37,127 bases of DNA from Amanita rubescens (lineage: Eukaryota; Basidiomycota; Agaricomycetes; Agaricales; Amanitaceae): positions 1-37,127 of the forward strand of contig WION01000524.1 of assembly GCA_015039365.1 (NCBI GenBank). The letters run 5' to 3'. The stretch's first letter is position 1; each line of letters begins with the position of its first letter. Both the position numbers and the translations under genes were made by a program. Below the pieces are notes generated by a model, which was given only the letters and a program-made list of their open reading frames with translations, was not told the DNA's origin and made no database searches. Shown here in pieces: positions 3,400 to 35,820 of the stretch.

Positions 3400-5390
3400 T
3401 CATCCCACCTTCCCTGATTCTTGTATGTTGATGCCAGATTGGACATGGTGGTAAGAGTGTCTAGGTGGTCTGATCCAAGCTTTGTTGTTTTTTGCATTCA
3501 TCACCTCTATCTGCAGCTTTTGTGCTTCATCCCACCTTTCCTGGTTGAAGTATGTTAATGCCAAGTTGGACATGCTGACAAGAGTATCTGGATGGTCTGA
3601 TCCAAGCTTTATTTTTCTTGCATTCATCACATCCACCTCAAGCTTCTCTGCCTTATCACACCTTCCCTGATTCCAGTATGTTGATGCCAGATTGGACATG
3701 GTGGTGAGAGTGTCTGGGTGGTCTGACCCAAACTTTGTTATGAACTCATTCAATGCATCTATCTGAAGCTTCTCTGCTTCATCCAACCTTCCCTGATTCC
3801 AGTATGTTGATGCCAAATTGACCATGCTGCTGAGAGTGGAAGGGTGGTCTGATCCAAGCTTTGTTTTGAATGCACTCATCACATCTATCTCAAGCTTTTC
3901 TGCCTCATCCCACCTTCCCTGACCCCTGTATGTTGATGCCAGACTGGACATGGCAGCAAGAGTGTCTTGGTGGTCTGATCCAAATTTTATTTTTCTTGCA
4001 TCCATCACATCTGTCTGAAGCTTCTCTGCCTTGTCCCACATTCCCTGATTCCAGTATATTAATGCCAAATTAGCCATGCTGCTGAGACTGGAAGGGTGGT
4101 CTGAGCCCAGCTTTGTTTTTCTTGCATTCATCACATCCATCTGAAGTTTTTCTGCCTCATCCCACCTTCCCTGGTCCCTATATGTTGATGCCAAATTGGC
4201 CATGCTGGTGAGTGTATCTGGGTGGTCTAATCCAAGTTCTGTTTTGGATGTGTTCATCACATCTATCTCAAGCTTCTCTGCTTCATCCCACCTTCCCTGA
4301 TTCTGGTATGTTGATGCCAAATTGGCCATGCTACCAAGAGTGGATGGATGATCTGGTCCAAGCTTTGTTTTAAATGCATTTGTCACTTCTATCTGAAGCT
4401 TCTCTGCCTCATTCCACCTACCCTGATCCCTGTATGTTGATGCCAAATTGACCATGCTGCTGAGAGTGTCTGGGTGGTCTGATCCAAACTTTGTTTTGTA
4501 CACATCCATCACATCTGTCTGAAGCTTCTCTGCCTCATCCCACTTTCCCTGGTTCTTGTATGTTAATGCCAAATTGGACATGCTAGTGAGAATGGAAGGA
4601 TGGACTGATTGAAACTTTGTTTTTCTTGCATTCATCACATCCACCTCAAGCTTCTCTGCCTCATCCCACCTTCCCTTATTCCTGTATGTTGATGCCAAAT
4701 TGTCCATGCTACTGAGAGTGTTTGGGTGGTCAGATCCAAACTTTGTTTTGAATGCATTCATCACATCCATCTCAAGCTTCTCTGCCTCATTCCACCTTCC
4801 CTGACTCCTATATGTTGATGCCAAATTGGCCATGCTTGTGAGTGTGGAAGGGTGGTCTGATCCAAGCTTTGTGTTGAATGCATTCATCACATCCATCTCA
4901 AGCTTCTCTGCCTTGTCCCACCTTCCCTGATTCCTGTATGTTGATGCCAGATTGGCAATGCTGATGAGAGTGGATGGGTGGTCTGATCCAAGGTTTATTT
5001 TGAATCCATCTATTACATCCATCTGAAGCTTCTCTGCCTCATCCCACTTCCCTTGATTCCTATATATTGATGCCAAATTGGCCATGCTGGTGAATGTGTC
5101 CGTGTGATCTGATCCAAGCTTTGTTTTGAATGCATCAATCACACCTATTTGATGCTTCTCTGCCTCATCCCACCTTCCCTGATTCATGTATGTTGATGTC
5201 AGATTGGACATGCTGGTGAGAGTACCTGGGTGGTCTGATCCAAAGTTTACTTTGAATGCATTCATTACATCAATCTGAAGCTTCTCTGCCTCATCCCACC
5301 TTCCCTGATTCCTGTATGCTGTTGCCAAATTTCCCATGCTAATAAGAGTGTCTGGGTGGTCCAATCCAAGTTTCATTTTTCTTTGATGCA
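2740..5390 (-). repeat. 126-bp tandem TPR-coding repeats
   Basis: About 20 units of 126 bp (42 codons) run head to tail, including the degraded tail. Neighbouring units are similar enough to suggest continuing homogenisation. One stretch of about 121 bp at 3067-3187 looks identical by eye to 4645-4765, although other units separate them. Confidence 0.85.
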
Positions 5391-7007
5391 CTGCAACATG
5401 TAACAATTTTTCTTGTTCATCCCAGCTCCCAGCACGATCAAATGCAAGTGCAAATCTTGCATATTCATCATCATAGTACTTGTCATTCAACTTGAATTCC
5501 AATCCATGCAAAAAGTTTGACCTGATGTGTGGTGTGAGTGATTGACAGAATTCATAATTATCAGTATTCCAGTCAAGGGCTATTGAACAGGATAAAAGTG
5601 CTCTTGCTCTGTAATATTGATCAGTTACTTGTGTTTTTGGTATGCAGTTCCTACTCCAGGCATTTACTAGTAGGTGCATAGAATACAAGTGACTATGACT
5701 CCTGATTAAAGAGAAGGAGAGTAAAACCTGGATGCCATGCAGAAAATGTAATTTGTCCCAATCCCCATCTTCCCCCAAGAACACAGTTTCATCATCCAGC
5801 AAACTCAATGATGATGAAACATACACATGATCCTCAATATTTCTTTTCTTGTAATTCTCAGCAGCATTTTTGAATAATTCTTGTGGTATATTAGCATGAT
5901 CCAGGAAAGCAAAAATCCTCAAGAGCTTGATGGCACTTTGTGCTCCAACAGATTCCTGTGAACTATTTTTTGCAGCCATATCCTCCATCTTTTTTATGGA
6001 AATGTCCCATGTCCCATATGTAGATGTTCCATAATCTGAGGCACCCTCAAATCCAGGAGTGTCCCTCATTAATTTGTGCTTGTATCTTGTGTACAATTCC
6101 AAATAGCCATTAATGCTGCAACCACAGGAATGCATATATGCTCCTGCTTGGTCAATGGCAAGGGGGATTCCATCCAATTGTGACACAAACTTCTGTGCCA
6201 GATTATAGATATCATCATCTGTGTCATCAAGCATGGCTGACTTCAGAAGCAAAGAAATAGCATCCTCGTCTTCCATGCCATGAATCTCCATTGAGTTCTT
6301 GCTCAATGCAAACTTCTTCAACCCAATATTCCTACTTGTTATCATAACATTTCCTCCATTTCCTGGTGGAAGGAAATTCTCAACTACTGAGTAATGTTCA
6401 TCTGCTCCATCATACACCATCAAAAAATTGTGCCTTTGAGAGATCCAATGAAGAGCAGATCTGGCTGAGGGTCTACCATCTGGTGAAGTACAGTAGGTTG
6501 AGGATATTTGTGTGAGCATGAATTCAACACTTTTCTCTGAAGATGCATTGATCCAGAATATGTCAGAGAACCTTGAAGAGGTTCATCATGATGACAGTTA
6601 AATTGCCATACTAATATTATAAGATACTCACAAATCAGTATTTTCTTCAATAAATTTAAGGCAAATCTGTGTCTTTCCAATCCCACCTAAACCATGCAAT
6701 AGGAAAAAATTCCTTTGTCCTTGATCTTGGGAGGTAAAATGGTCCTTAAGCTTCTGCAAGTACTTGTCTTGACCTGTGAAGAAAGTGCTAGAATGTTTAA
6801 TAGCAGGTAAAGGAGGTAGATCAATGTCAGAAGGGTCTGAAAGATAGTAATTAATCTATGTATGAGTCTTCATTATTGACAGAATCCTGGTGTAATAATG
6901 CTGAAATGCAATACCTCTATGAATTGGCCATCCATAACAATGACATTCTGGAATCCAGCAAAGATACCAGCATTCCCTGCTACCTGAGGTATGTCTGCTG
7001 ACATCAT
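3400..7007 (-). CDS. NB-ARC protein with kinesin-light-chain-type TPR repeats
   Basis: STAND-type P-loop ATPase, the fungal counterpart of an NLR: NB-ARC switch plus TPR sensor. The gene model is 6915-7007, 6856-6914 intron, 6632-6855, 6572-6631 intron, 3400-6571. It totals 3489 nt and stays in frame throughout, giving 1162 aa. A short N-terminus is followed by the Walker A motif GLGGIGKT, a Walker-B-like FLMVYDGAD, an ITSRN motif (RNBS-B type) and LDGIPLAIDQAGAY (GLPL type). After a linker (to about 5390) come about 15 TPR units of 42 residues, each of the form LGSDHPDTLxSMxNLASTYxNQGRWDEAEKL. The repeats are unusually alike at DNA level. The frame ends at 3400 soon after a one-base shift, so the last residues (from AWIRPPRH) are out of register and the original protein was longer. 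The start ATG at 7007 has a second ATG right behind it. The whole gene is strikingly CpG-poor. Confidence 0.88.
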
Positions 7008-10447: not shown

Positions 10448-13400
10448 ATGGCAGCTACAACTAGTGCACCTTCTTTGAGTAGGCCAATTTATATGTCTCA
10501 GCATTGTTAATCCCTGATTGACACATATCAGATGCAGATGATCATGAGGCACATGTTCAAGTACTCAGGGAACGCTATCTATGCCCACACTTTCGCATCC
10601 TTGTCATTGGAAGGGCTAATGCAGGCAAGACAACCATCCTTGAGAAGGTTTGTGGTGTAGCAAAGGGGACAGAGACCATCATATATGACAAGGATGGTAA
10701 GTCAATTGGAATTTTGTGCTTCCTTTGGCTGTCAAGTTTCTTGCAGGCAATCAGCTTGAACAGTCTGTGATTCATTTGATGCCATCCATTGAGGTGAGCC
10801 AGATAATGATGTATGGATGTACCCATTCACATCCAAGGATAACAGAGAGGCCTGCATAATATTGAGCATCAAATTACATACCCTGGAAGCAACTTTATCT
10901 TCCATGACTCTATGGGTTTTGAATCTGGTTCAACTGAGGAACTGGAGCTTGCTTGGAAGTTCATTGAACAAAAGTCTGCAGAAACTGAGCTGAAGAAACA
11001 GCTGCATACAATTTGGTATCTTGCTTTTCCCTTTACAGTATTGTCTTACCTGGCTTCCTGTAGGTATTGTATACCCATGGACAGCCCTCGTCCCATTCTA
11101 CCTGCAGAACTTGAGTTCTTTAATAAAGGGACAGGCAGAGGTAAGTCACCATAAAATCTACTAAGTAACAATCTACAGTATACTAACTCATACATAAATA
11201 TATCCTTTCCAGTTCCTTTGGTAGTTATATTCACTAAATTTGATGGTCAAATAGCAAGTGAATTTGTCAACTTGACTGATTCAAAGGATGAAGATAAGTG
11301 GGAGAGTGCCAGGGAAATTGCTGAAATCACTTTCCAGAAAGTTTATCTTCCTAAAGTTATGGATGCCAAGTATCCTCCCAAGGCATATGTGCAATTGGAA
11401 GGTGAGAATGATGAGGATTTCTTCCTGAAAAATGGGAGTAATGTCATCTCATAGACATGGATTTACCTGAGAAGAATTGTGCTGAATTGACTCAGCAAAC
11501 TGCTGATGCAATAGATGATGAAAGCATACATCAGCTGTTTGTTTCAACACAGATGAATAATCTTGACCTTTGTGTTAAATCTGCACTTCAGTGAGAATCA
11601 TATTCAAAATGACATTTACTAACATTGACATTGTTCAGACATATTCTCAAACATGAAGATTTAAAATGGGATGAAGTCATTCTCATAGTTTTTTCAAAAT
11701 TTCCACATTTCTGGGTATGCATTTTTGTCAAACTGCACATCAGCACAGGAAATTTTAAATGGCAATAGGTGGACAGGGATGTAGGTGGCCTTCATATGGA
11801 ATTATGAATGCTTACAAAAGTTCATCAGGAGGCAAGTAACACTCCAATGCCTTCACATGAAAACAAGATTAGTGATTCTTCAGATGACCAATAAACAACT
11901 GAGTGAAACACAGGTTAGTCATACATCACATGTGTGGTAGCAAGATCTGATGATATTGATATCAGTGGGTAAGTGAAATTGAACTAGCATAGATCTGATG
12001 TATTGTCTCATGACAACAGTTTGTGAGTAATGCTTCCTTTTGTCATAGGCTGCAGCCTTATCCCATAATCTGCAGGAAGTGAGTGACATGACTTAATTTT
12101 GATTTTGGTAAATGATATCATGGTGCATCATATGACCAATAGCAAGTGAGTTGATCCATCATTGTAAGCAGACTTATCAATCCAGTCTCTTGTGGACAGG
12201 GAGTAAGTAATACAACACTGTTTCACACCACATCTGACCTGCTTAAAGAAAGTAAGCAACATTGATATTTGTACAGTTTATCAGACATAACACAAAGAAC
12301 AACAGGAGGTTGGTGACATACTATTATGTATGTATCTGAAAGAGAGTCTCATTGGATTAACAGGAAGTAAGTGACAGCTTCTCTCTGCCTGTTTATCAAC
12401 CTTACATTTTGTCCAAAACAACAGACAGTAAATATTTCTCATTCAAACTCAAAGAATCTTTACAAGCTACTGCAAAACAAACAGGATGTATGTGATCCTT
12501 TTGTGACATGTGAATTCATCATATGAAACAATATGGTAAAAGAAAGTCAGTGGTATTGTTTTCTTTTTTCCCAACTCATTATACTAATTCCATTCTTAAA
12601 GGAAGTGAGTGATGCTGGCCATGGTGCTACAGGATAATTTGGACAAATTGTTTTGTTCTACAGATTGTGAGTAATATTGCAAGTTTTGTAAAAAGCAGCA
12701 CAATCATATCTTTGTATATGACTATAGCAGGTTAGCAGCATGTCATGCTGGTTTCAAGTTAGTGGTCCAAAAGATGACCTAATCCCTGTGGGAAACAGTA
12801 TGTGAGTAACATTGCAAATATCTCTGATAAGCAGTTTTATGTACTTTTCCCTATGACTGATAGGATGTAAGCAACATTGATTTGTGTGGAAGACAGTTTC
12901 ATCACATCTCTTCCTTTTACCAACAGGGAGTGAGTGATATTGTACATTTTGTGAATGGCAGTCTCAACACATCTTTTCCTATGACCAACAGCGAGTGAGC
13001 AATGATATTGCACATTTTGTGGGAGGCTGCCTCCTCACATCTTTTTCTATGACCAGTATGTGAGTGACATTGGACATTTTGTGAAAGGCAGTCTTATCAC
13101 ATCATTTCATATGACCAACAGATTGTCAGTGACACCAGACATTTTCTGAAAGGCAGTCTTATCCTGTGACCAACAGCAAGTGAGTGATATCACATTGTGA
13201 AAGATGGTCTCATCATTCTTTGTAACAACCAACAGTTTGTGAGTGATACTGCATGTTTTGTGAAAGGCAGCCTTCTCATCAAATCTTTTCCTGTGACCAA
13301 CAGGATGTGAGTGACATTGTACATGATGTGAAATGCAGTCTCATCATCCTTTTCCTATGACCAACAGTTTGTGAGTGAGATTGAACATTTTATGAAGGGT

Positions 13401-16400
13401 CATGTCACATGAGCAACAGGATGTGAGTGAGACAGACTTTGTGAAAGGCAGTCTGCTCACATCTTCTCCTATGACAATAGGATGTGAGTCAGATTCCACA
13501 TTTTGTGAAAGGCAGTCTTGTCACATCTTTTCTTATGGCCAACAGGATGTGAGTGAGATTGCACATTCTGTTAAAGGCAGTCTTATCACATCTTTTCCTA
13601 TGACCAATAGCCAGCAAGTGACATTGCACATTTTGTGAAAGGCATCCTCATCATGTCTTTTCCTATAACCAACAGCAAGTGAGTGACACTGCACATTTTG
13701 TGAATGGTGGTCTTTTCACCTTTTTTCCTATGGCCAACAGCTTGTGAGTGACATTGTGCATCTTGTGAAAGGCAGTCTCATCACATTGTTTCCTATGAAC
13801 AGCAAGTGAGTGATATTGCACATCTTGTGAAAGGCAGTCTCATCACATCTTTTTATGACCAATAGTATGTCAGTGACATTGCACAATTTGTGAATGATAG
13901 TCTTATTGCATGTTCTCACATGACCATCAGCCTGTGAGCGACATTGCACATTATGGAAAAGGCAGTCTCACTTTTCCTATGACCAACAGCAAGTGAGTGA
14001 CATTGCAAATGTTGTGAAAGCCAGTCTCATCAATCTGACCAACAGCCAGTGAGCAACATTGTACAATTTGTGAAAGACAGTCTCATCACATCTTTTCCTA
14101 TGACCAACAGCAAGTGAGTTACATTAAACATTTTGTGAAAGCAGTCACACCACATCTTTTCCTATGACCATCAGCGAGTCAGTGACATTACACATTATGT
14201 GAAATGCAGTCTGATTACATCTTTTCCTGCAACTACCAGTTTGTGAGTGACATTACACATTTTGTGAATGAGTCTTATCACATTTTTTCCTATAACCAAT
14301 AGGATGTGAGTGCCATTGCATGTTTTGTGAAAGGCAGTCTCATCACATCTGAGTCTTTTCCCATGTTCAACAGGGAGTGAGTAACAATTTATGAAAGGCA
14401 GTCTTATCACATCTGTTCCTATGACCAACAGCTTGTGAGTGAAATTGCACATTTTGTCAAAGGGAGTCTCATCACATCTTTTCCTATGATGAACAGCATG
14501 TGAGTGACATTGCACATTTTGTGAAAGGCAGTCTCTTCACATCCTTTCATATGACCAACAGCTTGTGAGTGACATTGCACATTTTGTCAAAGGTGGTCTC
14601 ATCGCATTCTTTCCTGGATTCAACAGTATGTCAGTGACATTGCACATTTTGTGAAAGGCAGTCTAATCACATCTTTTCCTATGACCAACAGCGAGTGAGT
14701 GACACCACACATGATGTGAAAGGCAGTCTCATTGCATCTTTTCCTCTGACCAACAGGGAGTGGGTGACATTGCACATTTTGTGAATTGCAGTCTCACTGT
14801 CTTATTGCATTTTTTTTGGTAACCAACAGTCAGTGAGTGACATTGCACACTTTATGAAAAAGGGTCTTGTCAGATCTTTTTCTATGACCAACAGGGAGTG
14901 AGTGACACTGCACATTTTGTGCAAGGCAGTCCCATCACATTTTTTCCTATATCCAACAGCCAGTGAGTGACATCATTGCATGTTTTGTGATAGGCAGTCT
15001 CATCACATCCTTTCCTATGACCAACAGGATGTGAGTGACATTGCATGTTTTGTGAAAGGCAGTCTCATCACATCTTCCCCTGTGACCAACAGATTGTAAG
15101 TGACATTGCACATGTTGTGAATGGCAGTCTCCTTGGATCTCTTCCTATGACCTCCAGCAAGTGAGTAACACTGCACATCTTGTGAAAGGAAGTCCCATCA
15201 TATCTCTTCCTACTATGACCAACAGGAAGTGAGTGACATTGCATGTTTTGTGAATGGCAGTCTCACAATATGTATCTTTTTCTATACCAACAGCGAGTGA
15301 GTGACATTGCATATCTTGTGAAAGGCAGTCTCATCACATCTTTTCCTACAACCAACAGTTTGTGAGTCCCATTGCCTGATTTGTGAAAGGTAGTCTCATC
15401 ACATCTTTTCCTACAACTGACAGTCAGTGAGTGGAATTGCACATTTGGTGAAAGGCAGACTCATCACAATTTTTCTATGACAGCAAGTGAGTGACATTGC
15501 ACATTTTGTGAAAGGCAGTCTCTTCACACCCTTTCCTATGGCCAACAGTTTGTGAGTGACATTACACTTTCTTTTGAAAGGCAGTCTCTCCACATCTTTT
15601 CCTATGATCAACAGCTTGTGAGTGACATTGCACATTTTGTAGAGTCTCATCATATCTTTTCCTGTGACCAATAGCAAGTGAATAGCATTGCATATTTTGT
15701 GAAAGGACATCTCATCAGAACTTTTCCTATGAACCAATAGCCTGTGGGTGACATTGCATATTTTGTTAAAGATCTCTCATCAGATCTTTTGATATGACCA
15801 ACAGCTTGTGAGTGACATTGCACATGCTGTGAAAGGCAGTCTCATCACATATTTTTCCTTGGGCCAACAGCTTGTGAGTGACATCACAAGATTTGTGACC
15901 TGAATTCTTAGCATCCCTCAATTTACCAATGTTTGATATATAACTATATATATCAGAAAGTGAGCATGTTGCCATATCTTCCATGTCTTCCTCTTAGATT
16001 GTTATCAATATAGATTGTAAGATTTCATTTCAACTGATCTACTACCACCTCATGTGATCATTCCTCTCACTTATATAAATATCAGGTGAGTGATGCTGGT
16101 TCATGAGGCATTGGTTTTTATATTAGTTTGCATGGTAGTGTGTAGGTCTGATGACATATTGGATTTTATGTTCTAATATCACAAGTAGCAAGAGCTTTTC
16201 TCCCTCTTTGGAGACAAGCAAGGCAAGGCATTTTCAGTCACCTATGAAGGCAGCCAAAGGGAATTTGCAGTCAAGGTATTTTTTCCCTTCTTTTTTGGTT
16301 ACTAAGTACACAACTGATGCCATCCCAACAAGCTAACTGATTGCCAGGTCTTAGTTTGTAAATTATTCCTTTTCATTTACTGTATTTATGCTTAAACTTT

Positions 16401-16654
16401 CAAGCAATTGTTATCATTGCCAAGCTATCCTTTTGGATTGATAAAGCATTTCTGCCATCAGTTACAGAAGCCTTGGACCAATATAAGCAAAAAGGCTATG
16501 TTCAAAAGCTGAAGACTAAGATAACTGCCCAATTTATGGACCCTGGCCATCTAGATTTGGTCCCATTACTCTACAAGCAGGTGACTCACATTGATGGTAC
16601 ATAGCCACTTTGTCTTAGGCATGTGCTACTTATGAACAATTTATGACAGGGTGA
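10448..16654 (+). CDS. P-loop GTPase with 66 single-codon exons in its linker
   Basis: Exons read by eye: 10448-10478, 10532-10696, 10747-10793, 10846-11015, 11064-11140, 11213-11401, 11455-11590, 11639-11714, 11769-11780, then GAG (11829), a 30-nt exon 11884-11913, TGG (11966), 64 three-nt exons (12020-16016), 16189-16275, 16348-16357, 16405-16580, 16619-16654. Every join keeps frame; 479 aa predicted. The first eight exons give exactly 297 codons with G1 GRANAGKT (37-44), G3 HDSMG (D102), G4 TKFD (171-174) and a conserved FVSTQ, typical of the fungal AIG1/TOC-like GTPase family. Residues 298-377 are the linker from the tiny exons. Residues 378-479 form a C-terminal domain starting QELFSLFGDKQGKAF, probably helical. 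The last intron (38 nt) is short; if it is not spliced, the protein ends at TAG 16602-16604. If the splice at 11832 fails, it ends at 11894. About 80 exons in all. Function unknown; a signalling or self/non-self role is inference. Confidence 0.8.
11829..11894 (+). other. Alternative short C-terminus (no entry into array)
   Basis: If the GC-type donor at 11832 (gcaagt) is not used, the frame from GAG 11829 runs on for 21 codons (hydrophilic, ending SDSSDDQ) to a TAA at 11892-11894. This gives a GTPase of about 322 aa without linker or C-terminal domain. The 30-nt exon at 11884-11913, used in the long form, overlaps this stop in the same frame: its second and third codons cover it only in another register of splicing, since the long form removes 11832-11883. 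Confidence 0.5.
11829..16016 (+). repeat. Tandem intron array with one-codon exons
   Basis: Each unit is an intron (typically gtgagtgacattgcacattt ... ttttcctatgaccaacag, modal 62 nt) followed by exactly three bases. Exon triplets with start positions: GAG 11829, TGG 11966, TTT 12020, GAA 12076, CAA 12143, GGA 12200, AAA 12249, GAG 12306, GAA 12364, ACA 12425, GAT 12485, AAA 12543, GAA 12602, ATT 12664, CAG 12728, TAT 12799, GAT 12864, GGA 12927, CGA 12992, TAT 13057, ATT 13122, CAA 13177, TTT 13236, GAT 13304, TTT 13368, GAT 13420, GAT 13481, GAT 13546, CCA 13611, CAA 13676, CTT 13741, CAA 13803, TAT 13866, CCT 13931, CAA 13990, CCA 14046, CAA 14111, CGA 14175, TTT 14240, GAT 14303, GGA 14374, CTT 14432, CAT 14497, CTT 14562, TAT 14627, CGA 14692, GGA 14757, TCA 14830, GGA 14895, CCA 14960, GAT 15028, ATT 15093, CAA 15158, GAA 15226, CGA 15294, TTT 15359, TCA 15424, CAA 15484, TTT 15549, CTT 15615, CAA 15675, CCT 15741, CTT 15805, CTT 15871, AAA 15957, ATT 16014. 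Introns before about 12860 and after 15874 are diverged; those between are near-copies. Donors vary within consensus (GTGAGT, GTAAGT, GTCAGT, GTGAGC, GCAAGT). Confidence 0.85.
16076..16094 (+). promoter_or_regulatory. Zero-length exon / recursive splice motif
   Basis: Acceptor atatcag (ending 16085) is followed immediately by donor gtgagt (16086-16091). It lies inside the 172-nt intron between the last single-codon exon (ATT 16014-16016) and exon 16189. A joined AG|GT of this kind would let the intron be removed in two steps (69 nt, then 103 nt) without adding sequence. Confidence 0.45.
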
Positions 16655-16793: not shown

Positions 16794-16828
<35 letters not shown>

Positions 16829-30389: not shown

Positions 30390-33300
30390 TTAACAGTCAA
30401 TATCATTTACCTTATACCATTCGTCTCCAAGAGCCATGCGGCTAACGTCGACCTCCACCCCTCTCGGAATTACCATCCTGTTGCCAGGCAAAAAGAAGGC
30501 ATGTCTAAGATTTGGTGGAACCCAGAACAGAAGTTCGCCATCACGACCAGTAAACCATCCTTGCCCATTCATCTTCGTGTGCTGAAATATTCCAGCAGGA
30601 TCGTGAAGAGCATGTTCTTTGCAAGACGAGAAAGTTGGTGAAGAAACCTAATGTATCAACGTTGACAGAATACTATTGTGAAAAGCCTGAAGACCATACC
30701 TTTGCGTCAAATTCATCCCATAACCGGATCGTGTTGTCATCCGACCCCGATGCTATGCACTTGCCGTCTGTCGATAATGCAACAGATATGACAAAACTCT
30801 GATAATGTTCCCCCAGGGGTGTGAGTCGGAGCAGTTCTCCCGTCTCAGCGTCCCACAATCCAATTGTGTTGTCGCCTGACCCCGATACAATGTGCTTGCC
30901 AGTTGGCAAGAATGCAACAGACATGACCATATCCTGATGTCCCTCCAACGGTGCCCGCAGTGGCTCTCCTGTGTTGGCATCCCACAAACAGATTGTCTTG
31001 TCATCTGACCCTGATACGATGTGCTTGCCATCTGGCGAGAATGCGACAGACTTTACTGAACCATGATGTCCCTCCAGAGGTGCTCGCAGTGACTGTCCCG
31101 TCTCAGTGTCCCATAATCGGATTGTGTCATCCTCTGACCCCGACACGATGCACTTGCCATCTGGCGAGAATGCAACAGACATGACCGAACGCTGATGTCC
31201 CTCCAGAGGTGCTCGCAGCGGCTCTCCCGTCTTCGCATCCCACAATCGGATTGTGTTGTCAGATGACCCCGATGCAATGCATGTGCCATCTGGTGAGAAG
31301 GCAACAGACATGACCCAATCCTGATGTCCCTCCAGAGGTGCTCGCAGCACCTCTCCCGTCTCGGCATCCCACAATCGGATTGTGTTGTCATATGATCCCG
31401 ACACGATGGACTTGCTGTCTGGCGAGAATGCAACAGATGCAGTCCAATGCTGATGTCCCTCCAAAGGTGCTTGCAGCGGCTCTCCCACCTTGGCATCCCA
31501 CAATCGAATTGTATTGTCATTTGACGCTGACACGATGTGTTCGCCATCTGGCGAGAATGCAACTGATGTAACTGGACCCTGATGTCCCTCCCTGAGAGGC
31601 ACTCGCGGCAGCTCTCCCATCCCAATGTCCCACAATCGGATTGTGTTGTCCTCTGACCCCGACACGATGCGCTTGCCATCTGGCGAGAATGCAACAGACC
31701 CAACCCGACCCCGATGTCCCTCCAGAGGTACTCGCAGTGGCTCCCCCGTCTCTGCATCCCACAATCGGACTGTCTTGTCATATGACCCTGACACAACATG
31801 TTTGCTGTCTGGCGAGAATGCAACAGACATAACCCAATTCTGATGTCCCTCCAAAGGTGCTCGCAGCGGCTCTCCCGTCTCGGCGTCCCACAATCGGATT
31901 GTGCTGTCGTATGACCCTGACACGATGCGCTTGCTGTCTGGCGAGAATGCAACAGACGTGACCAAACCCTGATGTCCCTTCAGAGGCGCTCGCAGTGGCT
32001 CCCCCGTTTCTGCATCCCATAATTGAATTGTCTTGTCATATGATCCTGACACAATGTGTTTGCCATCTGGTGAGAATGCAACAGACATAACCCAATTCTT
32101 ATGTCCCTCCAAAGGTGCTCGCAGCGGCTCTCCCGTCTCGGCGTCCCACAATCGGATTGTGTTGTCGTACGACCCGGACACGATGCGCTTGCCGTCTGGC
32201 GAGAATGCAACAGACGCGACCCAACCCCGATGTCCCTTCAGAGGCGCTCGCAGTGGTTCCCCCGTCTCAGCATCCCATAATCGGATTGTGTTGTCATACG
32301 ACCCCGATACAATATGCTTGCCATCTGGTGAGAACGCAACAGACACGACCAAATTCCGATGTCCCTCCAGAGGCGCTCGCAGTAGCTCTCCCATCTCAGC
32401 ATCCCACAAGCAAATTGTCTTGTCATACGACCCCGACACGATGCGCCCACCGTCTGGTGAGAATGCAACAGACTTTACAGAATCGGTATGGCCATATAGC
32501 TCTCCCTGCACGACCGACCACGTTCCATTATGGTCAGAAATTATTTTTGCAGAACGATGGAACTTGTCCGCAAACGTCGTCGAAATACATGAATTCTTGG
32601 GCGAAAATGGCAGTGCAGATAGGTACAGATGAGGGGTGCTGAATGAAATAATGCCACTGAATAGACGAAGAAACCTTTGTGCATCCGCTACGTCATTCAC
32701 GGTTCCTATATATTTTTCCTGGGGCTAGTACACATTAGAAAATATACGGTGCAGAGAACCAGTTGACATACCGTGATCCACTGAATGAGAGATGACAGCG
32801 ACCCAGCGCATGTATTGATGGACTTGAGGAGGCTGAGCGCTTCAAACCAGAACAACAATTCCTTGTCGCTGAACAATTTGCGAACGAGGTCTGCAACGGA
32901 CACGTTGAACGGCATGTTACAAACATGGACAGTCCAAAATCGACACGAATACGCCAGTTCAGGGGAGATACATTCTTTGACGGTACGATCATAGAGATCG
33001 GGGATTTTGGAATTAGGAAGGTAGGAAGTTGGAATTTGGCAAATGTTGAATCGCAGTCCGTTCTCCATCACCAGAAGGCAGGAGACGGCGAGACTTTCCT
33101 GAACAGGCGATACGTCAATGAAGTACTCGCCACTCCGATCACGATCGATCAAGAAATCGGGAAAGGAAGCATGGAGGGCACGGATAGGGATCGAAGAATC
33201 AGTGGTTCCGCCGAGGAGTGCACCCATTGGGATCACAATGGAGCGGAGATCAATATCCGAACCGTTAACAAAATGGCGCCTCATTGCCGCTAATGAGGCA

Positions 33301-35820
33301 AGAGGAAGTGGCTCCACGGTTCCGAGGATTTGTGCCATCACAGATTTGAAGCGATCAATACAACGACGGCGCGCGGGTTCGTCTTTTGGAAACATTGCTT
33401 CCAGAGTGAGCCTATACATCCCGTCGAGCAGCGGAACGTCTTTACTGCGAGCCATGATGGCCGTGAAACGCCCTTCTGCAGTAAGTCCTGCGCCCGCGCT
33501 ATTCTCCCCCTTCACAAACGCACAAGCCAACCGGGCCCACTCAAACAATCCACCAGATTCACGAGCAAGGGAAGCTGAAAATGTCGGAAGCGCGGGTCCC
33601 ACCTCTATCTCTAACAGTTGATCGGTAACATAGCGAAGAACGTCAAGTTCCGTTGATGGAATGCTTTCCATGGACTTTTGTCGAACATGGATAACACTTT
33701 TGAATGCGTCAACGACATCTAGCAATGGTCGCGATGTAAGCAGGATCCGGAAGTGAGGGGGAAGGTTTGTGATGCTTCCTTTGGTCTTGGCATGCTTTCC
33801 AGCAAGAATCCGAAGAATGTGCCGTCGCGAATTTGTATCACCACTCTCGTCCAACGCGTCAATGACAATGACAATAGGTCCTGCCATTGCATCCGACATT
33901 GCATTGGCAGGCTGAACAATCAGCTCCTCCCATTGCTGCAAAACATCAGGAGTGTTCCTGAGCGACGTTTTATGATGGATTGCAGCCGCCAACGCTTTTC
34001 GCAACTGGGGGTGACAGTCAGCGAGGTCCTGTGCGATGGTTGCAAAGATCTTTTCATGGCGCCGTTCTGCTGCCCGGTTCCGGTCAAAGCAAAAAAGAGA
34101 TCCAAGGCGTCCCAAAGCTTTAAAGCGGTGAGCGATGGTGTGAGCAATCGCAGATTTTCCGGAACCGGCGGTGCCATGGAGACAGAATAATCGAGGCGCG
34201 CTATCGTCGACGTCGTTAATCCAATCCGTGATTTCATCGAGAATTTCGCCACGGGTCCCCTCCAAACAAAGCTTTTGGGTATTGAGGCCCGCACCCGCAG
34301 CATACGGCATACTATTGAGGTCCAAGTCTTCTGCTTTAACGTGCAAGTGTCAGAGAGCGCGGCCGGATTGATTAGAAAAAGGACTCACGCAATCCTTCAA
34401 AATGATCCCAAATCCGATGCACAACTACCAACGTATCTCCTATAGCGCCGTCGCGGAACTCTTGCATAAGTTTGTCGAAAACGCCGTTAAACTCTTTCAC
34501 GCGGTCGTCCGTCCCAGACAACAAGTTCTTGATAAATCTCGTCCCTTGACAAACAGGTGAGTTCACCGCCGGTATTATTACAATGCAACCTCAACGTACG
34601 GAATTTCTCGTTTTTCGAGTACTCCCGAATGAAATAGGAACACTCCAGAGTTTGATGGGTGATACACTCGACGACACTCTTCATGGACTCAATGCGCTGT
34701 AATTCTTCCCCCGTAAGGAATGTATACACTTCATCCATCTTTAGAAGGAGGGATCTGATTGAGTCGTCACGGTTCACTTGATCGATAATCGTCTATTCAA
34801 TATCAGCCCCACCAGTCGCAGGTAACGTATGAGACCCGAACCTTGGATGCAACAGAGAGTATGGTCCAAGCAGCGTATGCGTAAGGGTGGATCTAGGCAT
34901 TAAATCAATACACAGGTACCATTGTACAGTATGGGTGGAATTTACCGTGGCTAACTTGTTAACAATGTCGTTGAACATGGAAAGCTTGTCGAGGAACAAT
35001 GATTAGCGCTGTCGACTGTTGATACAACACCTCGGATAGGCGAGCCAAGGGTCTTCATATTAGAGAGGGCGGTACTCGCGGTCTCGCGGGCTTCCTCCGC
35101 AGTAGCGAGCGCCGAGACGGAAGTCATATCGACTGGGGTTTGGGTAGACTGAGATGGGGAAGGACGGGGATCCTCCTATCGACGTCAAAAATCTTCTCTA
35201 TGGAACTGATGAGGGGACACACCTTATGGTCAAAATAGACCTTGACGAGGGGATCGTGAGTTTGAACAATATACGGATCTAGTGAGATCAATCAGCATCG
35301 CTCAGGGTTAATGGAGTCGAGAAGAAAAACGGCTCACTTGTAAGATCGCGTTTAACTATTTCATGGAACGACAACGTCCATTCCTTCTCAAGTTTGAGTT
35401 TATTTTTAGGCCAGACACGGTGAGTTCTGAGGAGACGAAGGGTCGCTTCCGATTGCGCATCGATACTACAACAAGTTAACTTCCGGTTACTGACTCAAAA
35501 GTTTAAACGGAAGGGCGTACATCGCTTTATCCTCCAAGACCCATCTCAAGGTAGTTTCCCCGCGTTTGAAATGCTTTTGCACCGTTGACGTCCCTGTCCC
35601 ATTGTCCAATTCTAATACTGGGGCTGCCTGCCAACCGATGGGCTTTGCAAGGATAAGTTCGACTTCTTCGCAAAGTGTGAGTGCGCGCGGTCTCAGATAG
35701 CGAAATTATCTGTACCTTTTATCTGGACGGCATTGGGTCTACATTCTCAATTCGGCCAGAAAGCAGTCAGAGTAACGAATAGCATACTCACAGCCCGACT
35801 GCCGCAGCCTGAGAACTCAT
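30390..35820 (-). CDS. NACHT-WD40 STAND protein (fungal NLR-like)
   Basis: STAND NTPase of the HET-D/HET-E/HNWD type: a regulatory N-terminus, NACHT switch and WD40 sensor. The likely start is ATG 35820 (MSSQAAAVG), with a 29-nt first exon. Several small exons follow: a C2-like region (AKPIGWQAAPVLELDNG ... THDPLVKVYFDH), a helical region (MFNDIVNKLA; HPYAYAAWTILSVASK; MDEVYTFLTGEELQR), and the NACHT (exon ending 32772) with Walker A GTAGSGKS, Walker B IVIVIDALDES and LLTSRP. After the 32725-32771 intron come 14 WD40 repeats, each ending in TIRLWD. The intron 30648-30699 leads to a closing exon (GWFTGRDGELLFWVPP ... ALGDEWYK) typical of fungal WD40 NLRs. The frame stops at 30390. The joins at 34346-34390, 32725-32771 and 30648-30699 are phase-consistent; the smaller 5' exons are less certain. 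WD40 repeats are nearly identical, the mark of the variable allorecognition class. Role in non-self recognition is inferred from family. Confidence 0.85.
30709..32490 (-). repeat. 14 highly similar 129-bp WD40-coding repeats
   Basis: Units of about 43 codons (VAFSPDGKxIVSGSxDNTIRL type) run head to tail. Differences concentrate at a few positions, for example around the residues just after the EGH motif (RNLV, RGWV, KNWV, QGLV). Near-identity points to concerted evolution. Confidence 0.9.

Follow-up and report, generated by a model that had tools for sequence, protein, structure and literature searches.

What is encoded by a tandem array in which splice acceptor and splice donor motifs stand three bases apart dozens of times over? 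The array in question lies in a stretch of 37,127 nucleotides of Amanita rubescens (contig WION01000524.1, positions 1 to 37,127 of the forward strand; hereafter, the window), between the GTPase exons and the C-terminal exon of what is, from its translation, a predicted P-loop GTPase gene. Our reading, in which the sequence gives us high confidence, is that its 66 (67) units are single codons, with introns that are likely removed serially, and that they supply a predicted variable linker of ~65 residues that would join the GTPase domain to the C-terminal helices. Translation of the single codons, as proposed in a preliminary description of this DNA, is supported by three lines of evidence: (i) stop codons are avoided among the triplets; (ii) paralogs keep a residue string at one codon per exon; and (iii) proteins of relatives hold the residues, without introns, in matching order.

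Units, splice signals and spacing

A splice-site parse of positions 11914-16188 returned 62 exons, every one of 3 nt, and passed over four triplets that we recognized by eye and located by string match (GAG at 11829-11831, AAA at 12249-12251, CAG at 12728-12730, and ATT at 16014-16016), giving 66 acceptor-NNN-donor units. All 66 of the three-base units announced in the preliminary description were thus located, and the outermost two coincide with the ends it had given. The array of one-codon exons stands, except that it is not an unbroken run, as a 30-nt exon (MTNKQLSETQ, 11884-11913) follows the first single codon. The full splice signals claimed for it are present in the typical unit, which has a donor, a branch-like TGAC, and a CAACAG acceptor; the donors at 11832 and 13614, on the other hand, are GC and not GT. 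The gene model obtained from the parse plus the by-eye additions comprises 79 exons and 78 introns, in keeping with the roughly 79 splicing events foreseen. Chance origin of the array is excluded, since the strict motif [CT]AG-NNN-GT[GA]AG[TC] occurs 49 times in 11781-16188, compared with a mean of 0.18 and a maximum of 2 in 1000 Markov resamples.

The parse favours 3-nt exons by construction, and a motif scan was therefore taken as the unbiased count of spacing. Across the window and 20 other loci of the A. rubescens genome (21 loci altogether), 384 of the 392 strict acceptor/donor pairs lying 0-30 nt apart are separated by exactly 3 nt, the remainder by 2 nt (three pairs), 4 nt (two), or 6 nt (three), and with a slightly looser donor the figure is 400 of 408. 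In the 14 loci that could be parsed, arrays contain 36-83 putative exons each, 775 of 784 of them being 3 nt long. A plain minisatellite, it had been argued, would lack any reason to keep such a three-base window. We rejected the 3-nt spacing as proof of exons, because spacings internal to the introns are kept almost as well: five control motif pairs retain their distance in 81, 85, 92, 95, and 98% of cases, so that spacing alone fails to separate exons from a minisatellite. A plain minisatellite within a single 4.3-kb intron, spliced out whole and with the triplet as the variable part of the repeat, would accord with these intronic spacings, with the high identity of the repeats, with the exact loss of a unit described below, and with the reading frame, which whole-array removal would keep as well. 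It gives no reason, however, for the missing TAA and TGA triplets, for a common residue order in 13 of the 14 arrays, or for such a string in the proteins of relatives, and we regard it as extremely improbable.

Stop codons and residue order in the triplets

Parsed counts refer to the 14 loci; left out of them are L011 and L029, which have no N anchor, and L012, L016, L018, L020, and L027, where the anchor motifs were unmatched. First-pass strings of the unparsed loci include WFEQG or WFEKG in L016, L018, L020, and L027 and FEQGKEAD in L012. L030 was parsed apart by a rougher script and enters no count. Not one of the 775 parsed triplets is a stop. C-to-T changes are the most frequent of base changes; nevertheless, one exact 24-base pattern, scanned like our other genome-wide patterns over the 75.7-Mb assembly, matches 316 times with a CAA or CGA triplet and once with TAA or TGA. 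In a matched first-base test, which we preferred to a null of independent positions, T comes first in 0 of 403 triplets of the form xAA or xGA, compared with 84 of 245 of the form xAT or xTT (Fisher 8e-41, with units that are copies of one another and thus not independent, which limits the stop statistics). Noncoding minisatellite triplets would show no coding constraint on their variable bases; here, stops are avoided and residue order is kept.

The residue order is conserved from one paralog to the next. Thirteen of the 14 parsed arrays open with W-F-(E/D)-x-G, each residue on an exon of its own. The next residue is K, by parse in 12 of the 13 and by eye in the window, and from there the arrays vary around K-E-T-D-R-E-I-Y-D-G, three loci (L013, L021, and L024) having TDREIYDG unaltered. 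Codons 1, 2, and 5 are TGG, TTT, and GGA, identical in 13 of 13 loci with the conserved start. The window has 17 single-codon exons with the conserved string WFEQGKEETDKEIQYDG (11966-12929, + strand; 15 by parse, with K and Q among the triplets added by eye), their triplets reading W F E Q G K E E T D K E I Q Y D G, followed by the hypervariable part RYIQFDFDDDPQLQYPQPQRFDGLHLYRGSGPDIQERFSQFLQPLLK, spread over 47 single-codon exons (12992-15959, + strand; by parse). L030 (C124:38001-41500) belongs to another GTPase subfamily and carries a microexon array with a different intron sequence, in which an 18-nt exon, KHNDID, comes before W-F-Q-E-A-I-K-A-A-G, resembling protein P0041 (KHNEIDWFESADDAAG).

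The same order recurs in proteins, here described from the best 120 of 839 matches. Those named to species among the matches listed are mostly from Amanita, and several jgi proteins derive from contigs of 1.0-1.9 kb and are unbroken across the positions of A. rubescens introns. Because of these short contigs and unbroken frames, we read P0002, P0018, and similar jgi proteins as probably representing spliced messages of relatives. P0018 has the order VGRD-E-MANKQLSEAQ-WFEHGKKDTDKQIVYDG, and the window exons give VDRD, E, MTNKQLSETQ, and then WFEQGKEETDKEIQYDG; by eye, WFEHGKKDTDKQIVYDG is identical to the window string at 12 of 17 positions, as is WFEKGKKESDREIEYDG of P0002. Further on, P0002 has I followed by VRFHF, the expected reading of the window's ATT exon and of the start of the following intron if retained. 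The ordered array codons match P0018 with p<=0.004 (beating at least 997 of 1000 shuffles) and P0002 with p<=0.002 (at least 999 of 1000), in each case in 13 of 14 loci. Among the proteins opened, P0024, P0033, P0041, P0060, and P0113 run via the linker into a C-terminal domain like that of the window; P0024 and P0033 share 95% identity in the parts flanking the linker and 39% within it, their linkers measuring 67 and 50 residues. A search with residues 180-311 of P0018 gave 41 matches, the best coverage besides itself being 67% (P0002, P0017, and P0072), and P0072 has the start of the linker only. The viral contigs searched gave no match. A. rubescens gene models among the matches listed span 211-407 aa, compared with 459 aa in the joined prediction, and none of the eight opened (P0001, P0008, P0014, P0070, P0071, P0072, P0076, and P0114) has the linker: P0070 joins its GTPase portion directly to the C-terminal one, and P0072 stops soon after a first W. 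The array linkers seem to be absent from the A. rubescens annotation.

Besides the spacings kept within introns, several observations weigh against the reading of the units as single codons: (i) the introns after codons 1-4 are themselves 77-84% identical on average; (ii) the conserved string is missing in L028 (p 0.45 with P0018 and 0.04 with P0002); (iii) the only TGA unit that the strict pattern matches in the genome lies in L009 (unit at 1506, reverse strand), in an array that starts with WFEQG, and the rougher parse of L030 puts one TAA triplet, which we take for a misparse, ahead of the conserved string; (iv) stops in the reverse complement are also low (18 compared with 64 expected under independent positions), and the independence null was demoted because it overpredicts there as well; (v) reading the joined triplets in frame +1 also meets few stops (3 in 761), compared with 88 in frame +2; (vi) P0018 and P0002 end inside or just past the linker, P0002 in an apparent retained intron, and the linker of the jgi proteins may sit in an ordinary exon of their own genomes; (vii) the window's predicted linker region, used as the query of a protein search, produced nine candidates and no match at E<=10; and (viii) L014 (C13:578000-587999) includes two exons of 4 nt and three of 2 nt, and all of its exons joined are out of frame.

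If the units are single codons, their splicing would be intron-defined and serial, one intron after another, since an acceptor and a donor 3 nt apart would bar both exon definition and simultaneous assembly on adjacent introns; the skipping of any unit would keep the reading frame. Many of the codons could then be alternatively included, giving many linkers per gene, as is stated for truffle nank genes in the excerpts of the sources cited below. This is a distinct possibility, though one that we doubt. It is favored by parsed units that are 3 nt long, in phase 0, and stop-free (noted exceptions aside), with a frame that survives every skip, by donors and acceptors that are closely alike among units, by the alternative splicing stated for codon-sized microexons in those excerpts on Tuber, and by the calculation that an assumed fidelity of 99% per intron leaves 46% complete messages after 77 introns. 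On the other hand, P0018 and P0002 have, by eye, all 17 conserved positions in order, and the linkers measured in P0024 and P0033 are close to full inclusion of 36-83-unit arrays. These two proteins are not isoforms of one gene, because they differ by 5% outside the linker too. We thus favor a linker in which the single codons would be mostly included. If alternatively spliced, the arrays would provide a mushroom with an extensive combinatorial repertoire.

Family scale, unit turnover and codon diversity

GTPase and C-terminal exons flank the array, in sense, in 19 of the 21 loci, with only the C-terminal exon present in L011 and L029. This exon reads open in all 19 loci that have anchors, and the ratio of nonsynonymous to synonymous substitution rates (Ka/Ks) has a median of 0.61 and is below 1 in 160 of the 169 pairs computed (of 171). 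Genome-wide, a unit pattern with up to 3 mismatches gives 3868 matches, and its reversed control gives 3; since the pattern finds 495 units where the parse finds 775, extrapolation suggests that the genome may hold about 6,000 units, some of them in redundant contig copies and with the link to the gene seen within the fetched loci. L016 and L018 are 99.1% identical copies with the same first-pass codon strings; this pair and L026/L031/L032, near-identical on different contigs, could represent allelic copies, duplicated genes, or redundancy in the assembly. Between L026 and the nearly identical L032 the difference is exactly one 65-nt unit, or one R codon (393 compared with 328 nt over the spot).

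Codon and intron change were compared in unit pairs chosen for an intron difference of <=4%. In the 780 such pairs of L014 the introns differ by 0.4% per site and the following triplets in 74% of pairs; in the 2086 pairs of L026 the values are 1.3% and 84%. Enough pairs were available in only 2 of the 14 arrays, five others giving 1-4 pairs and seven none, which is a further point against our reading. In L014, four different codons (CTA, CAA, CGA, and CTT) occur among 34 units whose flanking introns are identical. Minimum-change counts place at least 4 of 7 changes in 3 of 65 columns in L014 (43 units; p 1.4e-4) and at least 11 of 24 in 3 of 65 columns in L026 (67 units; p 3e-9). Such codon-focused change fits diversifying selection, local hypermutation, and intron homogenisation alike; our own choice is diversifying selection, by likeness to the het-d/het-e repeats as these appear in an excerpt of PMC1805685. 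What marks the repeats of fungal NOD-like receptor (NLR)-type genes is also found here, namely, homogeneous units, variation at few sites (two arrays), and a change in unit number (one copy pair). Of 754 microexon codons, covering 17 amino acids in 14 loci, 97% have A or T as their last base, compared with 64% of 368 codons in ordinary exons of the gene in the window; every Phe is TTT (68) and every Lys AAA (42), and Gly is GGA in 88 of 92. A G ahead of the donor is, by eye, common in the ordinary exons of that gene and rare in the microexons.

These observations suggest a route by which the linker could change. The near-identical introns would provide homology for unequal crossing-over, through which codons could be gained, lost, or reordered singly, while selection would alter the codons themselves; by analogy with fungal NLR repeats, the linker probably has a role in recognition (allorecognition or immunity). 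Extended to the genome as a whole, this would amount to codon shuffling in a GTPase family with about 6,000 one-codon exons (extrapolated), in which introns serve as recombination homology, a recognition peptide is edited residue by residue in frame, and codons diversify many times faster than introns, a picture that we put forward tentatively, as plausible but a little short of probable. Alternatively, an older linker may have been continuous, with intron copies of the introner type later placed between its codons. Near-identical introns beside differing codons, seen in two arrays, are what mass insertion would be expected to leave; however, the units lie head to tail within the GTPase family in the 21 loci examined, their number changes by a whole unit, and we know of no mechanism that would insert introns at intervals of 3 nt and always exactly in phase 0. 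We consider this origin very unlikely.

Gene anatomy, protein fold and known systems

All exons of the gene model lie on the + strand. The GTPase exons occupy 10448-11714, as judged from translation and homologs, with boundaries approximate to 1-2 nt save for 11714. They comprise the start MAATTSAPSLS (10448-10480), the P-loop exon with GRANAGKT (from about 10525), the TKFD exon (about 11212-11400), further exons at about 10749-10793, 10846-11019, 11068-11139, and 11454-11591, and a last exon from about 11640 to 11714 with the C end FPHFW. A 12-nt exon, VDRD (11769-11780; VGRD in P0018 and VDR in P0002), leads to the first single-codon exon, GAG (E), which was identified by eye and by string match (P0018 has RDEMANKQ) and is followed by the GC donor, and then to the parsed 30-nt exon, for which P0018 has MANKQLSEAQ. 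Beyond the hypervariable part come the single-codon exon ATT (I), likewise placed by eye and by string match (P0002 has I here), and a zero-length joint, CAG/GTGAGT, at 16085-16086 (by eye; unstranded), a possible recursive splice site; an AG/GT joint stands at this position in 12 of 14 aligned loci and is missing in L014 and L026. TGT (C) at 16139-16141 is, by eye, the likely last single-codon exon and would be the 67th unit. The exon QELFSLFGDKQGKAFSVTYEGSQREFAVK, beginning QELFSLFG (16189-16275; P0024 has PELFSVFGE), and the C-terminal exon AIVIIAKLSFW...LLYKQ (16404-16580) complete the model.

GTPases are recognized by the motifs G1 (GxxxxGK[ST]) and G4 ([NT]KxD). Both occur in the window protein, as GRANAGKT and TKFD, and residues G38, K39, T40, T167, K168, and D170 are invariant in 20 aligned relatives. 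The Pfam match to MMR_HSR1 falls just under the cut-off and is the only one, so the protein lacks a NACHT-ankyrin architecture. An AlphaFold2 model of P0024 shows a confident GTPase domain and C-terminal helices, with linker residues 296-358 under 50 in the predicted local distance difference test (pLDDT). The best Foldseek matches for this model, GM4951, BDLP, IniA, and Irga6 (E about 4e-5 to 1.3e-4, query template modeling [TM] score 0.28-0.38, identity 9-13%), point weakly to immunity-related and dynamin-like GTPases as the nearest solved folds; a PDB sequence search gave no match at E<=0.1. Elsewhere in the window, an (AT)14 simple repeat lies downstream of the GTPase gene (16797-16824), and two NLR-type genes lie on the - strand, one at 3400-6582 with NB-ARC and 14 TPR_10 stretches and one at 30673-34349 with NPHP3_N/NACHT (32706-34349) beside WD40 repeats (30673-32724). 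That two repeat-bearing NLR-type genes share the contig with the microexon GTPase fits an immune setting, without being proof of it.

Tens of consecutive one-codon exons in a gene would strain models of splice-site pairing, as dozens of near-identical introns call for ordered removal without exon definition, and the layout suggests a route to protein diversity by a DNA repeat that is almost wholly intron, with one residue per unit. Parts of this organization recur in known systems. The het-d/het-e WD40 repeats are, in the excerpt of PMC1805685, similarly made of near-identical units that change in number and vary at few codons per unit, but there the entire repeat is protein, whereas the Amanita unit is intron save for one codon. 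The micro-exon genes of Schistosoma mansoni, in the passage of PMC10526429 concerned, are likewise built of short exons (3-81 bp); unlike the array, they have introns of up to 5 kb and encode secreted proteins, and tandem near-identical introns are unmentioned in that passage. Isolated ultra-small exons, as given in excerpts of the respective papers, include 1-nt exons (PMC4674806, PMC12940212), two 3-nt exons in lipS (PMC5639578), and a 3-bp exon of hth (PMC7392893); these are reported to be spliced though too small for exon definition, but number one or two per gene, in contrast to tens in tandem. Closest are the nank (NACHT-ANK) genes of Tuber melanosporum, which, according to excerpts of PMC4986451 and PMC10197012, owe their diversification to alternatively spliced microexons the size of one codon (3 bp), so the statement that no described gene is organized in this way does not hold; beyond them, titles and abstract openings in the literature yielded no gene of this layout. 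In the features given by these descriptions, the nank genes resemble the Amanita array in their multiple 3-bp exons and in forming an expanded, putatively self/nonself fungal gene family. They differ in belonging to another phylum, in encoding NLRs rather than GTPases, and in that alternative splicing is stated for Tuber, whereas the Amanita genes are known from sequence alone. The kind of gene is already known from truffle, and what is new in Amanita is a different phylum, a different protein family, and an apparently large scale.

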